Shown here: in pieces, positions 37,342 through 52,596 of the stretch
Numbering within the stretch: the stretch's first letter is position 1
Layout: the number at the start of each line of letters is the position of its first letter
From: Anaerolineae bacterium
GTDB lineage: Bacteria > Chloroflexota > Anaerolineae > UBA4142 > SHND01
DNA length: 52,742 nucleotides
Direction of reading: 5' to 3'
Assembly: GCA_021463195.1 (NCBI GenBank)
Contig: JAJTXZ010000027.1
Coordinates: 1-52,742, forward strand
Position numbers and translations under genes: made by a program
Notes under the pieces: model-generated
Databases searched by the model: none
What the model was told of the DNA's origin: nothing
Seen by the model: the letters and a program-made list of their open reading frames with translations, nothing else

Positions 37342-38892
37342 ATGAAGAGTCGAATCAGCTGGACATTGCTTCCAGCGGCAGTCCTTTTGTTCATCATCGC
37401 CGCGTGCGCGCCAGCGCCCGCGCCCGCGCAGCCGACCGCTGTCCCCGCGCAGCCAACCGCCGTTCCCGCGCAGCCGACCGCCGTTCCCGCGCAGCCAACC
37501 GCCGTTCCCGCGCAGCCGACCGCCGTTCCCGCGCAGCCGACCACCGCGCCCGAAGCCACGGTCGCGCCAACCGCTACCGCGTTACCGACAGCGGAAGCGG
37601 GACGCAAACAAATTCGTTGGTTCGTCGGGCTGGGCACCGGCACCGATCCCGCCCAAGTCAAAGTGCAAGACGAGATTGTGAAAAAATTTAACGCGTCCCA
37701 AGACAAAATCCAACTCGTCTTGGAAGTCGTCGCGTACGATGCCGCGCGCGATGCTCTCGCCACCCAACTCGCCTCGGGCAATCCCCCGGACATTGTGGGC
37801 CCCGTCGGCGTTTCCGGCGCGGAAGCCTTTCACGGCCAATGGCTCGACCTTGCGCCCTTTATCACGAAAACAAATTATGATTTGACGCAATTCGACAAAG
37901 GCGCCGTGGACTTTTACAAAGTCGGCGGCGAAGGCCAAGTCGGTCTGCCCTTTGCGATTTTCCCCTCGGCCGTGTTTTATCAACGCGATATGTTCGACGA
38001 AGCGGATTTGAATTATCCGCCGCACAAGTACGGGGAAAAATACAAATGGAAAGACGGCGCCGAAGAAGAGTGGACGTTCGAGACGCTGAACAAACTCGCG
38101 GAAAAGTTGACGGTGGACAAGAACAACAAAGACGCGAGCGACTCGGCGTTCGACCCAAAGAATATCGTCCAATACGGTTATGAACCGCAGTATCAAGATT
38201 TGCGCGCGGTAGGTTCGTACTTTGGCGCAGGCACCTTTGTCGCGCCCGATGGCAAGACCGCGCAAATTCCGCCGCAGTGGGCCGAAGCGTGGAAATGGGT
38301 CTATAACGGCGTGTGGAAAGAACACATTATCGCCAATGGGCCCACGCGCGAAAGCCAAGAATTCGGACAGGGCAATCCTTTCAATTCGGGCAAAGTCGCA
38401 ATCGCATTGACGCACTTGTGGTACACCTGCTGCGTGACAGACGCGGGCGGCAACTGGGATGTGGCGGTCGTGCCTTCGCACAATGGCAAGACCACCTCCA
38501 ACTTTAATGCCGACACCTTCCGCATCTTGAAAGCGTCGAAAAATCCCGACGAAGCGTTCACCGTCTTGACCTACTTGCTCGGCGACGCGTCGTTGCCCCT
38601 TTTGAAAACATACGGCGGTATGCCCGGACGCACTGCCGACCAAGCCGTGTTCTTTGATTCGCTCAATGAAACGTGGAAGCAAAAAGTGGACTGGCAAGTG
38701 TTTATTGACGGCATCAAGTACGCAGACAATCCTTCCTTTGAAGGATACATGCCCAATTACAATGAATCGTTCGACCTCGCCAACGTGTTCTTGAACAAAC
38801 TGTACACGACGGACGGTCTGGACATGGACAAAGAAATCGCGCAATTCCAAAAAGATTTGCAAGCGGTCTTTGACAAAAAAGCTGCGCAGTAA
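37342..38892 (+). CDS. ABC sugar transporter, extracellular solute-binding lipoprotein (family 1)
   Basis: A 516-residue binding protein that delivers sugar to the two permeases downstream. The signal peptide ends at a lipobox IAAC with C22 as lipid anchor. A linker of six heptapeptides (AQPTAVP type, about residues 29-70) holds the mature domain off the membrane. The domain has ASGNPPDIVGPVGVSGAEAF, YKVGGEGQVGLPFAIFPSAV and GKVAIALTHLWY, as in family 1 binding proteins. AAGGAGG lies at good spacing before the ATG. The ligand is not readable; the neighbouring GH4, ChbG-like and kinase genes suggest a chitooligosaccharide or other amino-sugar oligomer. Confidence 0.92.
   Translation: MKSRISWTLLPAAVLLFIIAACAPAPAPAQPTAVPAQPTAVPAQPTAVPAQPTAVPAQPTAVPAQPTTAPEATVAPTATALPTAEAGRKQIRWFVGLGTGTDPAQVKVQDEIVKKFNASQDKIQLVLEVVAYDAARDALATQLASGNPPDIVGPVGVSGAEAFHGQWLDLAPFITKTNYDLTQFDKGAVDFYKVGGEGQVGLPFAIFPSAVFYQRDMFDEADLNYPPHKYGEKYKWKDGAEEEWTFETLNKLAEKLTVDKNNKDASDSAFDPKNIVQYGYEPQYQDLRAVGSYFGAGTFVAPDGKTAQIPPQWAEAWKWVYNGVWKEHIIANGPTRESQEFGQGNPFNSGKVAIALTHLWYTCCVTDAGGNWDVAVVPSHNGKTTSNFNADTFRILKASKNPDEAFTVLTYLLGDASLPLLKTYGGMPGRTADQAVFFDSLNETWKQKVDWQVFIDGIKYADNPSFEGYMPNYNESFDLANVFLNKLYTTDGLDMDKEIAQFQKDLQAVFDKKAAQ
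37426..37551 (+). repeat. Six tandem 21-bp units coding AQPTAVP
   Basis: In-frame repeats in the lipoprotein linker. Units 2+3 and 4+5 are identical 42-bp pairs, alternating GCCAACC and GCCGACC, which indicates a recent doubling of a two-unit block. Confidence 0.9.
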
Positions 38893-41218: not shown

Positions 41219-42511
41219 ATGAAAGTCGCAGTCATCGGCGGCGGTTCAACGTATACGCCGGAATTGGTGAATGGTTTCCTGCAGCGCGTCGCGAGTTTTC
41301 CTTTGCGCGAATTGTGGCTGGTGGATATTGACGCGGAACGTTTGCGCGTCGTCGGCGGTTTCGCGCAGCGCATGGCGGAAGCGCAAAACGCGCCATTCAA
41401 AATTTTTCTCGCCACGAATCGGACAGAGGCGTTGCGCGACGCGAGTTATGTGACGACGCAGCTGCGCGTCGGCATGATGCCCGCGCGGCGCAATGACGAA
41501 TATCTCGGCAAACGACACGGCTTGATTGGTCAGGAAACGACGGGCGTCGGCGGCATGGCAAAAGCGTTACGCACCATTCCCGTCATCCTCGAAATCGCGA
41601 ACGAAATGCGCGAACTCGCGCCGGGCGCGCTGCTCGCCAATTTCACCAATCCCGCCGGACTCGTCACGCAAGCGTTATCGCAATACGCGCCCGATATTTT
41701 ATCCGTCGGCGTCTGCAATGTTCCCATCAACGCGAAAATGCGAATGCTCGCGCAGTTGGAAAAAAATTTGGGCGCGCCGATCGAGCCCGCGCGCGGCGAA
41801 TTGAAAACGCTCGGACTCAATCATCTCTCATGGCATCGCGGGTTCACGCTCGACGGCGAAGATGTGTGGAATACGATTTTGCAAGATACGTTGACCGAAT
41901 TGCGCGCGCAAGAGCATCCCGAATGGACGCCGCGCTTGGTTGAAACGCTGCGCGCCATTCCAAATTATTATTTGCAATATTTTTATTACACCGCGAAAAA
42001 ATTGGCGGAACAAGAACATTGGCCCCCCTCGCGCGCCGAACAGGTGCAAGAAATCGAAAAAGGATTGTTGGAACAATACAACGACCCCGCGCTGCGCGAG
42101 ATGCCCGCCGATTTGATGAAGCGCGGCGGCGCGTATTATTCGACAGTGGCGACGCAACTTTTGAACGCGCATTACAACGATTTGAACGAAACGCATGTCG
42201 TCAATATCGCGCACAACGGCGCAGTGGCGGAATATCCCGCGCATTGGGTTTTGGAAATACCGTGCAACGTGAATCGCAAGGGCGTGCAGCCGCTTCCCAC
42301 GGAACCGTTGCCCGACGCGTGTTTTGGTCTGCTCGCGCAGGTGAAAGCGTACGAACTGCTCACCGTTCAAGCGGCGGTACATGGCGACCGTCAAGCCGCG
42401 TACCAAGCGCTCATCACAAATCCACTCGGTCCCAAGCCCGACCAAGCGCAAGCCGTTCTCGATGATTTATTGGAAACAAACAAAGCGTACTTGCCGCGAT
42501 TTAGCAGATAG
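41219..42511 (+). CDS. Glycoside hydrolase family 4 (6-phospho-beta-glucosidase type)
   Basis: A 430-residue NAD- and Mn-dependent glycosidase, starting MKVAVIGGGSTYTPELVNGF with the Rossmann motif. The metal ligands of GH4 correspond to C166 in VGVCNVPI and H202 in GLNHLSWHRG. GH4 enzymes cleave by oxidising C3, and ChbF, the E. coli relative, acts on deacetylated chitobiose-6-phosphate. Here the transporter is ABC type, so the substrate would be unphosphorylated or phosphorylated by the kinase encoded at 43595. ATG 41219 is preferred to an upstream ATG at 41180 because of the N-terminal motif. The 73-base spacer before it holds degenerate CAGACGACAGACAACA-type short repeats. Confidence 0.92.
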   Translation: MKVAVIGGGSTYTPELVNGFLQRVASFPLRELWLVDIDAERLRVVGGFAQRMAEAQNAPFKIFLATNRTEALRDASYVTTQLRVGMMPARRNDEYLGKRHGLIGQETTGVGGMAKALRTIPVILEIANEMRELAPGALLANFTNPAGLVTQALSQYAPDILSVGVCNVPINAKMRMLAQLEKNLGAPIEPARGELKTLGLNHLSWHRGFTLDGEDVWNTILQDTLTELRAQEHPEWTPRLVETLRAIPNYYLQYFYYTAKKLAEQEHWPPSRAEQVQEIEKGLLEQYNDPALREMPADLMKRGGAYYSTVATQLLNAHYNDLNETHVVNIAHNGAVAEYPAHWVLEIPCNVNRKGVQPLPTEPLPDACFGLLAQVKAYELLTVQAAVHGDRQAAYQALITNPLGPKPDQAQAVLDDLLETNKAYLPRFSR

Positions 42512-42671
42512 CGGATGACGGATAGCAGATGGCAGATAGCGAATTGCATATCGCGTATTGTCAAGGGTTAATCGCCAATCAAAAATCAAAAATCGCCCAA
42601 TCACCCAATCACCCAATCACCCATCTCCCAATCTCCAATCTCCAATCTCCAATCTCTAATCTCTAATTTCC
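42512..42671. repeat. Tandem short-repeat spacer ending at a start codon
   Basis: First come degenerate GATAGCAGAT-type units (42509-42540). Then TCAAAAA twice (42579-42592), three exact CCCAATCA octamers (42596-42619), four exact CAATCTC heptamers (42629-42656), and two TAATCTC/TAATTTC variants (42657-42670), one base before ATG 42672. No Shine-Dalgarno is visible. Confidence 0.9.
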
Positions 42672-43553
42672 ATGAACCCCATTCTCCAAAAACTCGGTTA
42701 TGCTCCCGACGCGCGCGTTGTCATTTTGCATGCGGATGATATTGGCATGTGTCAATCTTCGGTGGACGCGTATGCCGATTTGCTGGACGCGGGCATCATG
42801 TCCTCCGCCGCGACGATGACGCCGTGTCCGTGGTATCCCGCCGCCGCCGAATTTTTTCGCGCGCAGCAAAACAATCCGCATTTCGATATTGGCGTCCACT
42901 GCACATTGAACAGCGAATGGCAAAATTTTCGCTGGGGCGCGCTTTCGACGCGCGAACGCGCGAGCGGCATGTTGGACGCGGACGGTTATTTTTTTTCCAC
43001 GAGTGAACCCACGCAAGAACGCGCCGACCCCGACGCGGTGGAAAAAGAATTGACCGCGCAAGTGAAACGCGCGCTGGCGTCCGGTTTTGATGTGACGCAC
43101 ATGGATACGCACATGCTCACGCTCTTTCATCCGCGCCTCTTGCCGCCCTATTTGCGCGTCGCCCAAAAATTTCGCTTGCCCGCGTTCGTGCTGCGCGCCG
43201 AACACGCGTGGAATAACGACCTGCCGAAAAATATTTCAGCGTTGATTCGCCGCGCCGAAAAACGCGGGATGCCGACGTTCGACCATTTCGACGCCTTGTC
43301 GTTGACGCAGCACAAAAATCGTTTGCGCGAAGCGCAGCGCGCGTTGGATGCGCTGCCGATTGGTCTGAGCGCGCTCGTCTTTCATCCGTGCCGCGACGGC
43401 GCTGAAACGCGCGCGATGACACCCGATTGGAAATGCCGCGTCGCCGATCATAAATTATTTTTGAATGAACAATTTCGCGCGATGATTGCGACATCCGGCG
43501 TTCACGTCATCGGCTATCGCGTTCTGCGCGATGCAATGCGGAATCACGCTTAA
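42672..43553 (+). CDS. ChbG/YdjC-family carbohydrate deacetylase
   Basis: A 293-residue metal-dependent deacetylase. Motifs: VVILHADDIGMCQSS (D22/D23), DIGVHCTLNSEW (H76) and VTHMDTHMLTL (H143, H147), which together form the metal site, and the C-terminal LVFHPCRDGAETRAM. In E. coli, ChbG removes an acetyl group from chitooligosaccharides so that ChbF, a GH4 enzyme, can act. The same pairing occurs here, which supports an amino-sugar oligomer as the substrate of the locus. The ATG follows directly on a heptamer repeat. Confidence 0.92.
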   Translation: MNPILQKLGYAPDARVVILHADDIGMCQSSVDAYADLLDAGIMSSAATMTPCPWYPAAAEFFRAQQNNPHFDIGVHCTLNSEWQNFRWGALSTRERASGMLDADGYFFSTSEPTQERADPDAVEKELTAQVKRALASGFDVTHMDTHMLTLFHPRLLPPYLRVAQKFRLPAFVLRAEHAWNNDLPKNISALIRRAEKRGMPTFDHFDALSLTQHKNRLREAQRALDALPIGLSALVFHPCRDGAETRAMTPDWKCRVADHKLFLNEQFRAMIATSGVHVIGYRVLRDAMRNHA

Positions 43554-43560
43554 CGCAAAA

Positions 43561-43594
43561 AATCTCCAATCTCCAATCTCCATTCTCCAATCCT
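43561..43594. repeat. Heptamer repeat abutting the kinase start codon
   Basis: Three exact AATCTCC units (43561-43581), one ATTCTCC and a partial unit end directly at ATG 43595. It is the same heptamer as at 42629, in the same position relative to a start codon. Confidence 0.88.
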
Positions 43595-44593
43595 ATGTCG
43601 CGCTATTTTCTCGGACTCGATATTGGCAGCACCAAAACCCACGCGTGCGTTGCGGATGAAACCGGACAGGTCATCGGGTTCGGCGGCGCGGGCGGCGGCA
43701 ATCACGAATCAGTTGGTTACGAGGGCATGATTCATGCGCTCGGCGCGGCGACGCGCGAAGCGTTGACGAACGCGCGCATCGTCGCGCGCGCTTTGGACGG
43801 CGCGGGGTTCGGCATCGCGGGTTTCGATTGGCACACCGAACGCGCGGCGATGCTCGACGCGATCAGTTCATTAAAACTAGAGGCGCCGCTCGAAATTGTG
43901 AATGACGCGATGCTCGGCGTCATCGCGGGCGCGCGCGAGGGTTGGGGCGTCGCCGTCGTTTCTGGCACGGGCTGCAACGCGCGCGGACGCACGCGCGATG
44001 GCAAACGCGAAGGAATGGTCACGGGCGCCGGCACGCGAATGGGCGAAGGCGCGGGCGCGAGCGAATTGATACAATGGACCGTCCAAGCCCTCTCGCATCA
44101 ATGGTCAAAACGCGGACCCGTCACGCGGCTCGCGGACGTGATGGTTGAACGCGCAGGCGCGCGCAATTTAGAAGATTTGCTCGAAGGATTGATTAACTTT
44201 CGATACGAATTGGACGCGTCCGCCGCGCCATTGGTTTTTCAAATCGCAGCTCAAGGCGATACCGTCGCGCAAAAACTGATTGAACGCGCGGGACTCGAAC
44301 TTGGCGAATTGGCGAACGCGGTGATTCGACAACTCGATTTTCAAAACGAAACGTTCGATGTCGTATTGGTGGGCAGCATGTTCAATTCAGGCAAAGTGTT
44401 GATTCGTCCAATGCGCGAAACGATTTTGCCGCTTGCGCCCAACGCGCGGTTGACGCGGCTCAAAGCTCCGCCCGTCGTCGGCGCGGTCTTGCTCGCGATG
44501 GAACAGGCGCGCCTCGCGCCAACCTCGGCAATCCGCGAACGTTTGCAGGCGACGTTGCGATTCGCGCCGCGCGCCGCTATCCCCGCGCAATGA
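43595..44593 (+). CDS. BadF/BadG-type ATPase, N-acetylglucosamine kinase-like
   Basis: A 332-residue member of the ASKHA fold. The phosphate-1 motif is FLGLDIGSTKTHACVAD, the adenosine region includes GVAVVSGTGCNARGR, and phosphate-2 VTGAGTRMGEGAGASEL. Family members include eukaryotic-type GlcNAc kinase and bacterial sugar kinases. In this locus it probably phosphorylates GlcNAc or glucosamine released by the GH4 or GH18 enzymes. Its stop overlaps the next start as ATGA. Confidence 0.88.
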   Translation: MSRYFLGLDIGSTKTHACVADETGQVIGFGGAGGGNHESVGYEGMIHALGAATREALTNARIVARALDGAGFGIAGFDWHTERAAMLDAISSLKLEAPLEIVNDAMLGVIAGAREGWGVAVVSGTGCNARGRTRDGKREGMVTGAGTRMGEGAGASELIQWTVQALSHQWSKRGPVTRLADVMVERAGARNLEDLLEGLINFRYELDASAAPLVFQIAAQGDTVAQKLIERAGLELGELANAVIRQLDFQNETFDVVLVGSMFNSGKVLIRPMRETILPLAPNARLTRLKAPPVVGAVLLAMEQARLAPTSAIRERLQATLRFAPRAAIPAQ

Positions 44594-47754: not shown

Positions 47755-50700
47755 TTATTGGCACATGTACGCGCGCGCGCTTGTCGCGCGCCCCTTGGCG
47801 TTCAGCGTATACGTTCGCGCCAACGCCACAATTTCGCGCGCGCCGCCCTTGACGGTGGTGATACGCAGCGTGCCGCGAAATTCTGGTTGAAGCGGTTGAT
47901 AGAACCCGTGCGGCGACGTGACGGAATACGCGCTCGCCGCATTGACCTTGACGGTCACATCCGCCACTTGCGCGCCGCTTTCCGAATCATACACGCGCAA
48001 GCGGACGTTTGCGGCGTCATGCGCGTCGCCGTTCAACAGCGTGAGAATTGACTTGGTCGTCGCGTCCACCTTCAAGTCCGGACATCCAACGCGCGCGGAC
48101 AGTTCGCTTTCAGCCGCCGCGTTCACCGTCGCTAGTTGTTTGCCTCTATTTTGCGCGTTCAGAATCGTCACCGCAAGCGGCGCGCCCGGCGCAGTCACGC
48201 GCGCCCAGCCGTTGAATTTTTTGCCGAGGAATTTAAATTCCGATTCGCGCGTGTTGAACGATGCGATGCCGCCCGCCGCGACATTCGCGCGCGTGACGAC
48301 GCCGCGCGATTCGCCCGCATTCGTAAAGAACTCGACGGTTATATCTGTTGGCTGCGTATCCTGATTGCGCGCATAGATTTCGGTCCAACGGGGGATGACG
48401 CCTGTCGCGCGCACGCGCCGCGTGACAAACGGCGCCAACATGGATGGCGCGGCTTGGCTTGGGGTGAACGCGCTTGTGGACGCGGTATCTTTTATATCCA
48501 GCGCGAGCAGCGCCGCCGCGAGCGGTTGGTCGGACGTAATTTGGGCGCTGCCGACAAACGCGCCTGTCGGAAATAAATCGTTCGAGTTGATATAGGCAGA
48601 ACCGTTCGGCGCAAGCGTCAACGCTTGGGCAATAATTTGGATGCCGTCGGGATCAAAAATTCGCAGTGTCGCGTTCGCGCTATTCGCCGTCACGTTTTGA
48701 ATGGCGAACAAGCTATTACGCGTATCCAGCTTGAGATGACGCACAAACGGCAGCGTGAGCAGAGTCGAAGCGCGCGATGGCGCTTCGTACGTGTCTGTCG
48801 CGCCCGTCTTGCCATTCGTGTCTATGACAATGGCTTGAATGCGCTGGTCGGCGCTGAGCCGCGCGTTGCCGACAAAATTTTGGGCGAGCGACGCGGGCAG
48901 TTCCACCAAACGCGCGGCGTTCGGTTTAATGCGGAATTTATCGGCGAATACGCGGTTGCCTTGCGCGTCAAAGATTTCGAATTGCACGCGCGCGACTTGC
49001 TTGGCGCTTGTATTGAAAACGCGCAGCTGGGTCATCATCCGGCCGGGCGCGACGGCTTTATCCGCGGCTTGGGGCGCGGGAAGCGGCGTCAATTCTGGCG
49101 TTTCTATCGTCGCATCAGTCGGCGCAAATGTCGGCGTTTCGGTCAATATGTCGGTGGGCGCGTCGGTGGGCGTGCGCGTGCGACGCGGATTCGCGGTGAG
49201 ATCACGCGTTGGGCGTCGCGTCGGAGAGCGAGTCACTTTGGCGAACGCGTCCGCTGACGCGCGCGATTCGTTTTCGTTCAATGGCGCGACAAAGCCAATG
49301 GTTTTGAATTCACTCAAAGATGTTTCCGGTTTGACGCGGAATTGCCATGTCTCGGAATGGGTCATGCCATAACCGTTAATGGCGACAATTTCCCAAGTGT
49401 AGCGTCCTTTGGCGAGCGGCTCGGTACGGAATGAAAAGTCTGTGATTTTGTTGACGCGCACTATCGCTTTGCCGTCAGCATCGCGCACAACGACGCGGTA
49501 CGAGTCCACGCAATCCGCCGCGCTCCATTCGAGCGTAACGCGTTTTGTTGTGACAGTCGCGTCATTTTGTGGCGCAAGCAATGTCACGGGCTGCGGCGGT
49601 GCAGCGCACGCGACGACAGTAGGCGTTTCGGTCGGAACATCGGTCGGAGTTTCCGTCGGCGTCGCGGTGAACGCGAGCGTCGGCGTTTCAGTCGCGGTTT
49701 CGGTTACCGTCGGCGTTTCAGTCGGCGTCAACGTCGGCGTTATAGTTGTGGTCAAGGTTGGCGTCAACGTTGCCGTCGCGGTCGCCGTCGTTGTCAGTGT
49801 CGCGGTCGCGGTCAAGGTTGGCGTCGCCGTCGCCGTCGCTGTCGTGGTTGTTGTCGTTAGCGTTGCGGTTGGCGTCAGCGTTGCGGTGGCAAGCAGCGCG
49901 TCTTGGGATGCGGTCAAGAATCGGCGCCCGAGCAGCGGAATAAACAACGTGACGCTGTTATCGCCTTGCGCTTGATACGAGCCAATGACGCGCACATTGC
50001 CGGCGATATCGCGCGCGCCGATAAAGACGGTAAACGCGGCGGCGGGCGGATTTAGCGGCGTATAGGTCCATGCGCCATTATGCGCGTCGGACAGGGTCAG
50101 TTGGACTGTTTCGGTTTTGGATGCGCCATCGGCGGTCACGAGATAGGCGTACATTTCCGCCACGCCGCCGCCATCGCTCACAATGCCGCGCAAACCGAAT
50201 TGCGCTTCAGGCGGAGCTTGTTGGGCAGTTAATTCGGCTTGGGTCGTTGGCGCGTCAATTAAAACACGCGCTTCCAAACTCGCCGTGATTTGCTGGGTTA
50301 CGGTAATGACGGGCGCGATGGTATCCAGCGTAAAGGTTCGCTGCGCCGGCGTCGCCGACCGATTGCCTGCGCCGTCGAAACCGTAAATACTGACAGTTTT
50401 GGAAATTCCATCGCCCGCCATCAGATTGGCGAGATTATTATTCCAGGCGCCTGTGGTGTCGTCGGATGGCACAACGTCTCCTTGCGCGCAGAAAGACGTA
50501 AACGCGACGCCGTCGCACAGCGCGAACGCGTGCGCGGCGCGATTATCCTGTATCTGTCCCGACCACTGCGTTTCATTCAGCCCGATGATGCCATCCGTGA
50601 GCATCGCGTCCACCGCCGCGTCGAGCGTAACAGTCGGCGGCGTCGTGTCCACTAAAAGTTTGAGCGGCGGCGTCCACGCGCTCGTGAGATTTGAAACATT

Positions 50701-52596
50701 CGTCGCGCGCGCGCGGACCGACAATTCATTCAATCCCGTCAAAGCTCCTGCATCGAACGCGCAGCTCCATACGCCCGCGTGCGGATCATTCACGGGACAA
50801 TTTGTCAGCTGCCCGTTCACATCGAGTTGAATTGTCTGAACGCCCAGCAGATCATTCACCGCGCCAAAGACGGTGTTGACGCCGGGGCGCGCCCATTCGT
50901 CCGCGCTCGCAATCGTCACAGTCGTTGGCGGCTGCGCGTTGACAGGATGGAGCGCCCAGAGCCAATCAAACGCGCCGTGCAGTTCGTCCGCGATGGCGAT
51001 ATCGAGTTCGGCGGATTGGTCATTCAACGCGGTGTTGATGTCGCCGTTAATCGTGACGGTGTTGGAGATGCCGATGCCGACATCGCCGAGATTGATCGTT
51101 TGAATAGTCTGCCCGCCATTGATGCGTAACGCGCCGAACGCGCGAGCGGTGAGCGTCACATTTCTTGCCGTTTCGCTGCCGCGATTTTCATATCGCAAAA
51201 CATATTGCAATGTTTGCCCATCGCCAACATTGACGAGCTGCATGCCAAACGGCAGCGCGCGGTCGGGTTGTCCATCGCCATCAGCGTCGAGACGCGCGTT
51301 TGGCGTCACTGCGTCGAACAGACTATCTTGCAAGAATCCGACGCGTATTCCGCCGACAGCGGCGTCAAGCGTCGCCTGCATAGCGCCGCCGGGACGTTTT
51401 CCGCCATTTGGCAAAACGCCGCTTGTCAATGTGGGGAAAGCGTAATATTGCGTGAGCGCGTATTGTGTCAGCGCGCGCCCCTGTCCGAGCGCGCTTGTCA
51501 CGCGCGCGCTGTTGAGCGGATTTTTATCCGGCGCGCTCGCCCACACTTGCAAAGTATTCTCTTCGCTGGCGAGCGCGATGAATTTGAGCGACGACGCGGG
51601 CGTCAGGCCTAACGCGTTCAAGGACAAACGAATATCAGCGCGCGTCGAGTCGGCATAGAACCGAGTCGCGTCGAGCGCCGCCACCTGCGACCAGCCGCCG
51701 TTGAATTGCCACAGCGTCGCGTCGGCGCGATTTTGAATCCAGACGAGATAGTTGGCGTCAAAGCCGTCCGGCAAGCGCAGCGCGTTGGCGCCGGCGTCAG
51801 CGGGATAGGGATCATACAGCTGCGTCGCGCCGCCGGCATTCGTATCGAGATAAACAAAGAGATCGCCCTGCGAATTCCAATCCGCGCCCTGCCAAAGCAT
51901 CCGCAGCGTATCGGCGTTCCATGACGCGAACAGATTTTGCGCGGACGTATTCGGCGTGTTCAGCGCCAAAGCGTGATCAGAGCTCACCCAACTCGCGCCG
52001 CTATCTCTCCAACCGTCGTAATTCATATCGTCCACAAGATCGGGCGTCGTCGGCGCGTCAACATAAAAGGGACCCGCGGTCATGGCGGAACGATTGCCAT
52101 ACGCGTCCTCGCTCACGAGCTGCGCGTAATAGACGGTAGCTTCATTCGGCGTAAATTCAAAATGCGTCGCGTTTTGCGCGGTGAGGTCGCCGAGATTGAC
52201 GAGCGGATTGGTTGTGAATCCAACATAATAGGTTGCGATACCGCTGCCATCCGTTGCCGCGCCCCAATCCATAATGAGTTTGGGATTATTGAATCGCACT
52301 GCTGCATCGCTATTGAGCGTCACGGCGGGATTGCCGCCATCTTGGGCGGATACGTCGAGATTCACCTGACTGGGCGCGACGACATCCACGTACACATTTT
52401 TCGTCACGCTGGCAGCGCGGCCATAACCATCCGTTACGCGCGCGGTGACGGCGACGGTTGCGCCATCCAGCGCGCCGGTCAACCAATCGAAATGCCATGC
52501 GCCGCCGCTATGCGCGACGCTCTGGAATGGCTGTCCACTGCCGATTTGAATTTCAACATTGGAATTGGCGCTCGCGTTCACAACGCCGTCAAGCAT
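47755..52596 (-). CDS. Giant Thr-rich surface protein, N-terminally truncated
   Basis: At least 1613 residues. It begins in mid-domain (MLDGVVNASANSNVEIQIGS) with no signal peptide, and the frame stays open upstream to about 52716, coding-like to about 52643, so the true 5' end is missing. N-terminal two-thirds: Ig-like repeats (LVDTTPPTVTLDAAVD, FDGAGNRSATPAQRTF) and a region with LVDDMNYDGWRD that resembles a glycoside-binding beta-sandwich. Then FIPLLGRRF, a long low-complexity Thr/Ala/Pro linker (coded around 49600-49905), an Fn3-like domain (VTLEWSAADCVDSYRVVV), a second TPT linker and C-terminal repeats (MLAPFVTRRVRATGVIPRWTEIY). A cell-surface adhesive or structural protein is likely; no anchor motif is seen. 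Confidence 0.8.
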   Translation of the reverse strand: MLDGVVNASANSNVEIQIGSGQPFQSVAHSGGAWHFDWLTGALDGATVAVTARVTDGYGRAASVTKNVYVDVVAPSQVNLDVSAQDGGNPAVTLNSDAAVRFNNPKLIMDWGAATDGSGIATYYVGFTTNPLVNLGDLTAQNATHFEFTPNEATVYYAQLVSEDAYGNRSAMTAGPFYVDAPTTPDLVDDMNYDGWRDSGASWVSSDHALALNTPNTSAQNLFASWNADTLRMLWQGADWNSQGDLFVYLDTNAGGATQLYDPYPADAGANALRLPDGFDANYLVWIQNRADATLWQFNGGWSQVAALDATRFYADSTRADIRLSLNALGLTPASSLKFIALASEENTLQVWASAPDKNPLNSARVTSALGQGRALTQYALTQYYAFPTLTSGVLPNGGKRPGGAMQATLDAAVGGIRVGFLQDSLFDAVTPNARLDADGDGQPDRALPFGMQLVNVGDGQTLQYVLRYENRGSETARNVTLTARAFGALRINGGQTIQTINLGDVGIGISNTVTINGDINTALNDQSAELDIAIADELHGAFDWLWALHPVNAQPPTTVTIASADEWARPGVNTVFGAVNDLLGVQTIQLDVNGQLTNCPVNDPHAGVWSCAFDAGALTGLNELSVRARATNVSNLTSAWTPPLKLLVDTTPPTVTLDAAVDAMLTDGIIGLNETQWSGQIQDNRAAHAFALCDGVAFTSFCAQGDVVPSDDTTGAWNNNLANLMAGDGISKTVSIYGFDGAGNRSATPAQRTFTLDTIAPVITVTQQITASLEARVLIDAPTTQAELTAQQAPPEAQFGLRGIVSDGGGVAEMYAYLVTADGASKTETVQLTLSDAHNGAWTYTPLNPPAAAFTVFIGARDIAGNVRVIGSYQAQGDNSVTLFIPLLGRRFLTASQDALLATATLTPTATLTTTTTTATATATPTLTATATLTTTATATATLTPTLTTTITPTLTPTETPTVTETATETPTLAFTATPTETPTDVPTETPTVVACAAPPQPVTLLAPQNDATVTTKRVTLEWSAADCVDSYRVVVRDADGKAIVRVNKITDFSFRTEPLAKGRYTWEIVAINGYGMTHSETWQFRVKPETSLSEFKTIGFVAPLNENESRASADAFAKVTRSPTRRPTRDLTANPRRTRTPTDAPTDILTETPTFAPTDATIETPELTPLPAPQAADKAVAPGRMMTQLRVFNTSAKQVARVQFEIFDAQGNRVFADKFRIKPNAARLVELPASLAQNFVGNARLSADQRIQAIVIDTNGKTGATDTYEAPSRASTLLTLPFVRHLKLDTRNSLFAIQNVTANSANATLRIFDPDGIQIIAQALTLAPNGSAYINSNDLFPTGAFVGSAQITSDQPLAAALLALDIKDTASTSAFTPSQAAPSMLAPFVTRRVRATGVIPRWTEIYARNQDTQPTDITVEFFTNAGESRGVVTRANVAAGGIASFNTRESEFKFLGKKFNGWARVTAPGAPLAVTILNAQNRGKQLATVNAAAESELSARVGCPDLKVDATTKSILTLLNGDAHDAANVRLRVYDSESGAQVADVTVKVNAASAYSVTSPHGFYQPLQPEFRGTLRITTVKGGAREIVALARTYTLNAKGRATSARAYMCQ
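49600..49905. repeat. Low-complexity hexamer repeats coding a Thr-rich linker
   Basis: Imperfect GTCGGCGTTTCG/GTCGCGGTC-like units on the plus strand encode Thr-Pro and Thr-Ala repeats in the giant protein on the minus strand. Prone to length change. Confidence 0.8.

Follow-up and report, generated by a model that had tools for sequence, protein, structure and literature searches.

Heptamer Arrays at Start and Stop Codons of an Anaerolineae Genome: Probable Arms of Intercistronic Stem-Loop Elements Associated with S23 Genes

The window, meaning the whole stretch of 52,742 nucleotides that was analysed, stems from an Anaerolineae bacterium of the Chloroflexota. On its plus strand, a gene for a family 4 glycosyl hydrolase (GH4; 41219–42511; PF02056, 5e-55; PF11975, 5e-47) is followed by genes for a YdjC/ChbG-like carbohydrate deacetylase (42672–43553; PF04794, 3e-48) and a BadF/BadG-type N-acetylglucosamine kinase-like protein (43595–44593; PF01869, 2e-20). 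The leader of the ChbG-like gene contains 2.6 copies of the heptamer AATCAAA (42577–42594, plus strand, TRF) and 5.5 copies of the octamer AATCACCC (42591–42633, plus strand, TRF), which pass into AATCTCC, AATCTCT and AATTTCC heptamers forming a C-rich (Y) arm (42628–42671, plus strand). The last unit ends at 42671 and the ATG follows directly at 42672. In the kinase leader a Y arm of 4.6 AATCTCC copies (43561–43594, plus strand) ends at 43594, again with the ATG directly after it at 43595. Both Y arms were found by reading of the sequence, by TRF and by pattern search. The motifs GGAG, GAGG and AGGA are absent from the 20 nt before the ATG of both genes. The initial annotation, which had described arrays at the two start codons and no Shine-Dalgarno (SD) sequence at either gene, is thus confirmed on both points. 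It had overlooked a third array on the far side of the GH4–ChbG gap. There, degenerate heptamers of the G/purine type occupy 42502–42540 (plus strand; TRF period 7, 5.6 copies, 75%) with the units AGCAGAT AGCGGAT GACGGAT AGCAGAT GGCAGAT AGCG, and reading of the sequence places the GH4 stop codon, TAG at 42509–42511, under this array. It would represent the 5' (R) side of the intercistronic element. The kinase gap has the C-rich arm alone, without an R arm.

With up to three mismatches, the two-unit pattern CCAATCTCCAATCTC has 12 matches in the window, compared to a mean of 1.3 in shuffled sequences, and none of 100 shuffles reached 12. In the 4.72-Mb genome 103 exact matches were counted versus none for the reversed control. 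These two comparisons show that the arrays are not a product of chance. A motif derived from the R array, GATAGCGGATAGCGGATAG, has no match in the genome. Both leaders fold like shuffled sequences, with z values of 0.14 for the GH4–ChbG gap, where the R array pairs poorly with the Y array, and −0.10 for the kinase gap. No S23 gene is present in the window, and a known structured RNA was rejected because neither an Rfam family nor a tRNA was found there. Three further repeats were observed elsewhere in the window. A perfect ATTTTTG (AAAAATC) heptamer array of 4.4 copies lies at 835–865 within a called minus-strand ORF, and its AAAAATC unit recurs in the ChbG leader at 42577–42594. A 21-bp tandem repeat, CCCGCGCAGCCGACCGCCGTT (37423–37546, 5.9 copies, 93%), has a length compatible with keeping the reading frame. 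Imperfect 12/18/24/30-bp repeats of the GTCGGCGT type are found at 49625–49898 within a large minus-strand ORF (47755–52596).

Position and orientation were investigated in 1.15 Mb of the genome, the window included. Some stretches were picked for holding the repeat, which inflates array densities and leaves orientation and distance figures unaffected. Gene starts came from a simple in-house caller, whose miscalls would blur abutment and could not create it. Period 7 dominates with 97 segments, versus 1–19 for each other period from 4 to 13, and 67 of 110 arrays are mainly intergenic. For the RGAGAYT/ARTCTCY family in same-direction gaps, the G-rich (R) form abuts the stop codon, with 23/29 arrays within 12 nt (7.2 expected), and the C-rich (Y) form abuts the start codon, with 17/32 within 12 nt (9.8 expected, p=0.0015). 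The placement at start codons that the initial annotation had noted is thus non-random in this sample. The array over the GH4 stop codon fits the rule for R arrays, and the order AATCACCC, ARTCTCY, ATG known from the ChbG leader recurs before purC.

Same-direction gaps with both forms show the order RY in 12 cases and YR in none. Among all close pairs, collected from the genome, its relatives and named contigs holding the repeat (mostly Chloroflexota), the ratio is 56 RY to 1 YR. Adjacent G-rich and C-rich arrays make hairpins, and the RY order is present in convergent gaps as well. This order is identical whichever strand is read and so characterises the hairpin rather than just the start codon. 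False-start avoidance (GGAG plus TTG in the G-rich strand) was rejected as the sole cause of the polarity, given that convergent gaps and ORF interiors show the order too. Arrays in the window's genome prefer same-direction gaps (48/553 vs 3/163, p=0.0015); in named contigs, convergent gaps also carry them. A second palindrome family, CGGATTTCCAGACCCCAAGGGTTTTCGAAAACCCTTGGGGTCTGGAAATCCG and its variants, occurs in many gaps of the window's genome (G000) without heptamers, for example at L049 (C2:2934-3296) and L050 (C3:2643-2999).

Many arrays are located in frame within conserved enzymes, among them PurH, PurD, PurL, topoisomerase I and an Lhr-type helicase, the latter two named from reading of their translations. 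Alignment with congeners shows that the in-frame arrays of PurH, PurD and PurL occupy length-variable stretches. Arrays within genes are unable to tune a start codon.

The pur operon also led to a protein family. PF05635 is the S23 four-helix-bundle protein of 23S-rRNA intervening sequences (IVS), and one gene of the operon encodes such a protein; it is found in two congeners and missing from the third. Most PF05635 genes are flanked by arms of 7- or 8-mers, of the G/purine type before the gene and complementary after it. For flanking inverted repeats, 38 of 54 Chloroflexota PF05635 genes exceed the 95th percentile of 933 control genes (Mann–Whitney p=2e-16). Inverted arms are absent from six weak family members (L247, L270, L273, L274, L297, L299), which by the GGSFNN-like coding motifs in their flanks look like accessory proteins of diversity-generating retroelements. 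Without these six, 38/48 S23 genes lie above the control cut-off and 10/48 do not. A stem of terminal inverted repeats is accordingly seen in 38/48 S23 genes, and it is also seen in the RY hairpins without an ORF. Among S23 genes on plasmids (cyanobacterial ones and a single Gemmatimonadota plasmid) 11/17 are armed (z over 3), compared to 1/111 other cyanobacterial plasmid genes (Fisher p=6e-11). Their arms are heptamers resembling the STRRs of cyanobacteria, such as GGGAGTA, GGGAACA and AGTCAGA. The likeness in kind to STRRs that had been noted at the outset gains substance here, as arrays of the same build flank the S23 genes of several Nostoc, Anabaena and Pseudanabaena plasmids. Three S23 genes of cyanobacterial plasmids (L330, L333, L335) are inserted into CRISPR operons, twice flanked by cas6 and cas4 and once by cas10 and a gene of the Cmr3 family.

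The two arms of an element fit each other better than they fit the arms of other elements: over 48 elements, the median score of an element's own arms is 18.75 versus a mean of 7.8 for swapped arms (p=2.5e-9). Close S23 relatives at different loci have the same arm unit in 3/3 pairs of at least 75% identity and in 3/8 pairs at 65–75%, and two copies in one genome, 91% identical and at different loci, have a common unit. Over all pairs, arm likeness and S23 identity are not correlated (rho 0.04, p=0.26), and units are common only above about 65–70% identity. The S23 ORFs are under purifying selection, with dN/dS values of 0.00–0.13 in ten pairs, several of which have saturated dS. Six S23 loci are present in the window's genome, and the arm units of four also occur there as arrays without an ORF (AATCACCC, GCGATAGT, AAAAGCT, RGAGAYT). 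One of these units is the AATCACCC octamer of the ChbG leader, from which the 3' arm of the S23 gene located at G000:C133:65962 (L245) is likewise built. TAACTGA was found in the 3' arm of a congener's S23 gene (L267). The elements examined lie between protein-coding genes, and none is located in helix 9, 25 or 45 of 23S rRNA; we therefore call them IVS-like and not rRNA IVS.

Single sites are found in several states. In the congener G002 the argF–arcC junction is empty, a plain 28-nt gap. G000 and G001 have an octamer hairpin there, without an ORF, that starts within the argF stop codon, and in G004 and G005 the junction is occupied by an S23 gene whose arms use other units. Between nuoD and nuoF, G002 has an 8-nt gap, and G003, G004 and G005 have an S23 gene with ACAGANN arms. 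Mainly from these same-site states we assign the ORF-less hairpins and the S23 elements to one class. The comparisons are compatible with insertion as well as with loss; neither movement nor a target duplication was seen for the elements. A comparison of the S23 loci at the nuoD–nuoF junction (L264, L275, L252-L254) with empty sites (L308, L324) shows that the ACAGANN unit is similar to what the host itself has at the upstream stop codon, that of nuoD (AGATAACAG). It looks as if the target had served as a seed for these arms, or as if the element had entered where the sequence already matched.

Based on these observations, the window heptamers would be part of a class of short stem-loops that are inserted between adjacent genes throughout the genome, and many full-sized members of this class carry an S23 gene. 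With a probability of roughly 0.6, we assign the window arrays to ORF-less members of an S23 IVS-like family of intercistronic stem-loops, of which they would form arms, for the most part the C-rich 3' arm. The step from the window to the S23 class would follow from the shared unit, period, polarity and position. That no S23 gene is present, that R and Y pair like shuffled sequence and that the kinase gap has the C-rich side only suggests worn or ORF-less members. A full element would consist of a G/purine-type arm of 7- or 8-mers starting from or in the upstream stop codon, an optional S23 ORF and a complementary C-rich arm at or near the next start codon. It would spread as a unit, as is supposed for the intervening sequences of 23S rRNA. 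S23 would serve the element and might do so by arm binding. Thanks to the RNA stem, insertion between two cistrons may do almost no harm, possibly because RNase III cuts it. Slippage would alter the copy number and might leave single arms like those of the window. Translation of the downstream gene would in that case be affected only incidentally, if at all. Mobility and RNA processing of the elements are both inferred.

An unlikely alternative is that the arrays are self-generated satellites: slippage would amplify tolerated heptamers, foldback synthesis would make the inverted partner, and S23 genes would be there by chance. The fast turnover of units, lengths and copy numbers between congeners agrees with such an origin, as does the similarity of the nuoD–nuoF arm unit to the host's own sequence at the nuoD stop. 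In addition, the RGAGAYT-class arms are not locus-specific. We found no co-variation of arms by locus in the ORF-less RGAGAYT hairpins, where own arms beat swapped arms in 50% of cases and are interchangeable between loci. Satellites do not, however, explain why S23 genes have matching arms in comparison to 933 and 111 controls, why close S23 relatives at other loci have a common unit, or why the RY order is so strict.

Cis-regulation, with copy number tuning translation of the downstream gene, was the explanation favoured by the initial annotation and is rather improbable for the class. The C-rich leaders would then be unstructured or bound by an RNA-binding protein. The C-rich arrays do end at or a few nt from start codons, and SD motifs are rarer in their leaders (3/25 vs 31%, p=0.046). 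The ChbG orthologues of two congeners are 80% and 78% identical, and both leaders keep 7/8-mer arrays ending at the ATG although units and copy numbers partly differ, with AAATCAC followed by AATCTCY in one and AAAATTC, AAAATCA and AATCACCC in the other. In one of these congeners the kinase ATG, too, is still preceded by heptamers; for the other this is not clear. Across three congeners, the spacing of orthologous pur genes varies from no gap at all to 217 nt; arrays that one species has can be missing from the next, and the genes occur with or without them. Array position is kept, the sequence changes and presence is optional between species. Since congeners gain and lose arrays, a conserved role in tuning translation is unsupported. 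As the main explanation it also falls short because the inverted copies abut stop codons even more tightly than the C-rich ones abut starts, because hairpins in convergent gaps and in-frame copies in PurL, PurH, PurD and other proteins have no start codon to tune, and because both window leaders fold like shuffled sequence. The array-bearing genes, moreover, have many unrelated functions. Translation tuning may occur for single genes, yet it fails to explain the class. Between purH and guaB of G002 (L220, listed with L308), a 114-nt gap folds into a long hairpin of very high stability (−72.5 kcal/mol), in which CCAATCTCC/GGAGATTGG is found and which is no heptamer array.

It is very improbable that the hairpins terminate transcription or stabilise operon mRNAs. 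Some of them are indeed very stable (−46.4 kcal/mol in the gap downstream of purF), and arrays prefer same-direction gaps, but the stems have no following T-run, the pur operon has hairpins at mid-operon positions, and they are missing from orthologous gaps. REPINs are short intergenic palindromes mobilised in trans by a single-gene partner, RAYT. The elements described here are similar in being short intergenic palindromes with a putative single-gene partner; they differ in that only four Y1 transposase matches were found in the genome, none flanked by RGAGAYT arrays, by which a RAYT/Y1 transposase was rejected as the mover. One Y1 gene (L249, G000:C6:11764) has an AATGCAA-type heptamer array about 70 nt from the matched domain. 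With only this one of four near a heptamer array, Y1 transposases are not a general source.

The IVS-like stem-loops that we prefer share several properties with known systems. In Coxiella burnetii, the 23S IVS has GACAGAT heptamers just before the S23 ORF in strain-variable copy number, and its origin was called unclear (PMC4990558). An S23-family ORF within a stem of terminal inverted repeats, heptameric repeats at this ORF and a suspected mobile or selfish origin are common to the 23S-rRNA IVS (PMC4990558) and most of the full-sized elements described here. In contrast to rRNA IVS, the latter lie between protein genes of operons, the ORF-less ones also in frame inside genes, occur many times per genome and have arms made up wholly of 7/8-mers.

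Rehm et al. described G-rich heptamers (GGGAATC, GGGGAYT) of the same polarity in Xanthomonas and Nostoc, with 70–75 convergent inverted pairs per Xanthomonas genome; no general association with IS or transposable elements was seen and S23 is unmentioned (PMC4692102). Our arrays resemble STRRs and these G-rich heptamers in the period of seven, the dispersed, mainly intergenic occurrence at species-specific sites and the variable copy number. The polarity is shared as well, with the G-rich strand just after or overlapping stop codons, G-rich units on the non-coding strand (and hence the C-rich strand) just before starts, and convergent pairs. Different are the link to S23, the many unit families per genome and the existence of empty and filled sites. 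MacGregor reported TAACTGA direct repeats of Beggiatoaceae, cyanobacteria and Bacteroidetes that stop roughly 1 nt short of start codons; a ribosome-binding site is mostly lacking, some repeats lie within ORFs, and a single case is inverted (PMC4679880). Similarly, our heptamer arrays end within a few nt of start codons lacking a ribosome-binding site, and some are inside ORFs. Unlike the present elements, TAACTGA repeats are direct repeats; a translational role was proposed for them in Beggiatoaceae and no link to S23 was made (PMC4679880).

In the open-licence literature on IVS/S23 and heptamers, we found no report of a link between the two. New here are the association of S23 with arms, the co-variation of the arms, the three-state site and the extension to Chloroflexota. 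More tentatively, and at somewhat less than even odds, the STRRs of cyanobacteria, GGGAATC of Xanthomonas, TAACTGA of Beggiatoaceae and the window repeats might all be arms of one mobile stem-loop class, the autonomous form of which would encode an arm-recognising S23, with rRNA IVS as members that landed in rRNA genes.

Repeats of the STRR type were described decades ago and there is still no consensus on how they arose; to our knowledge S23/IVS elements have so far been recorded almost exclusively in rRNA genes. The S23 association ties a puzzling bacterial repeat to a little-understood mobile element. If the link holds, the two would explain each other, the repeats being the arms of the element and S23 its only conserved gene. 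It would give a simple reason for array ends that coincide precisely with start and stop codons, and for the occurrence of related repeats in unrelated phyla. Binding of the arms by S23, cutting by RNase III and gain or loss at known sites would become testable. It would also be a warning that effects of copy number on translation may be incidental.
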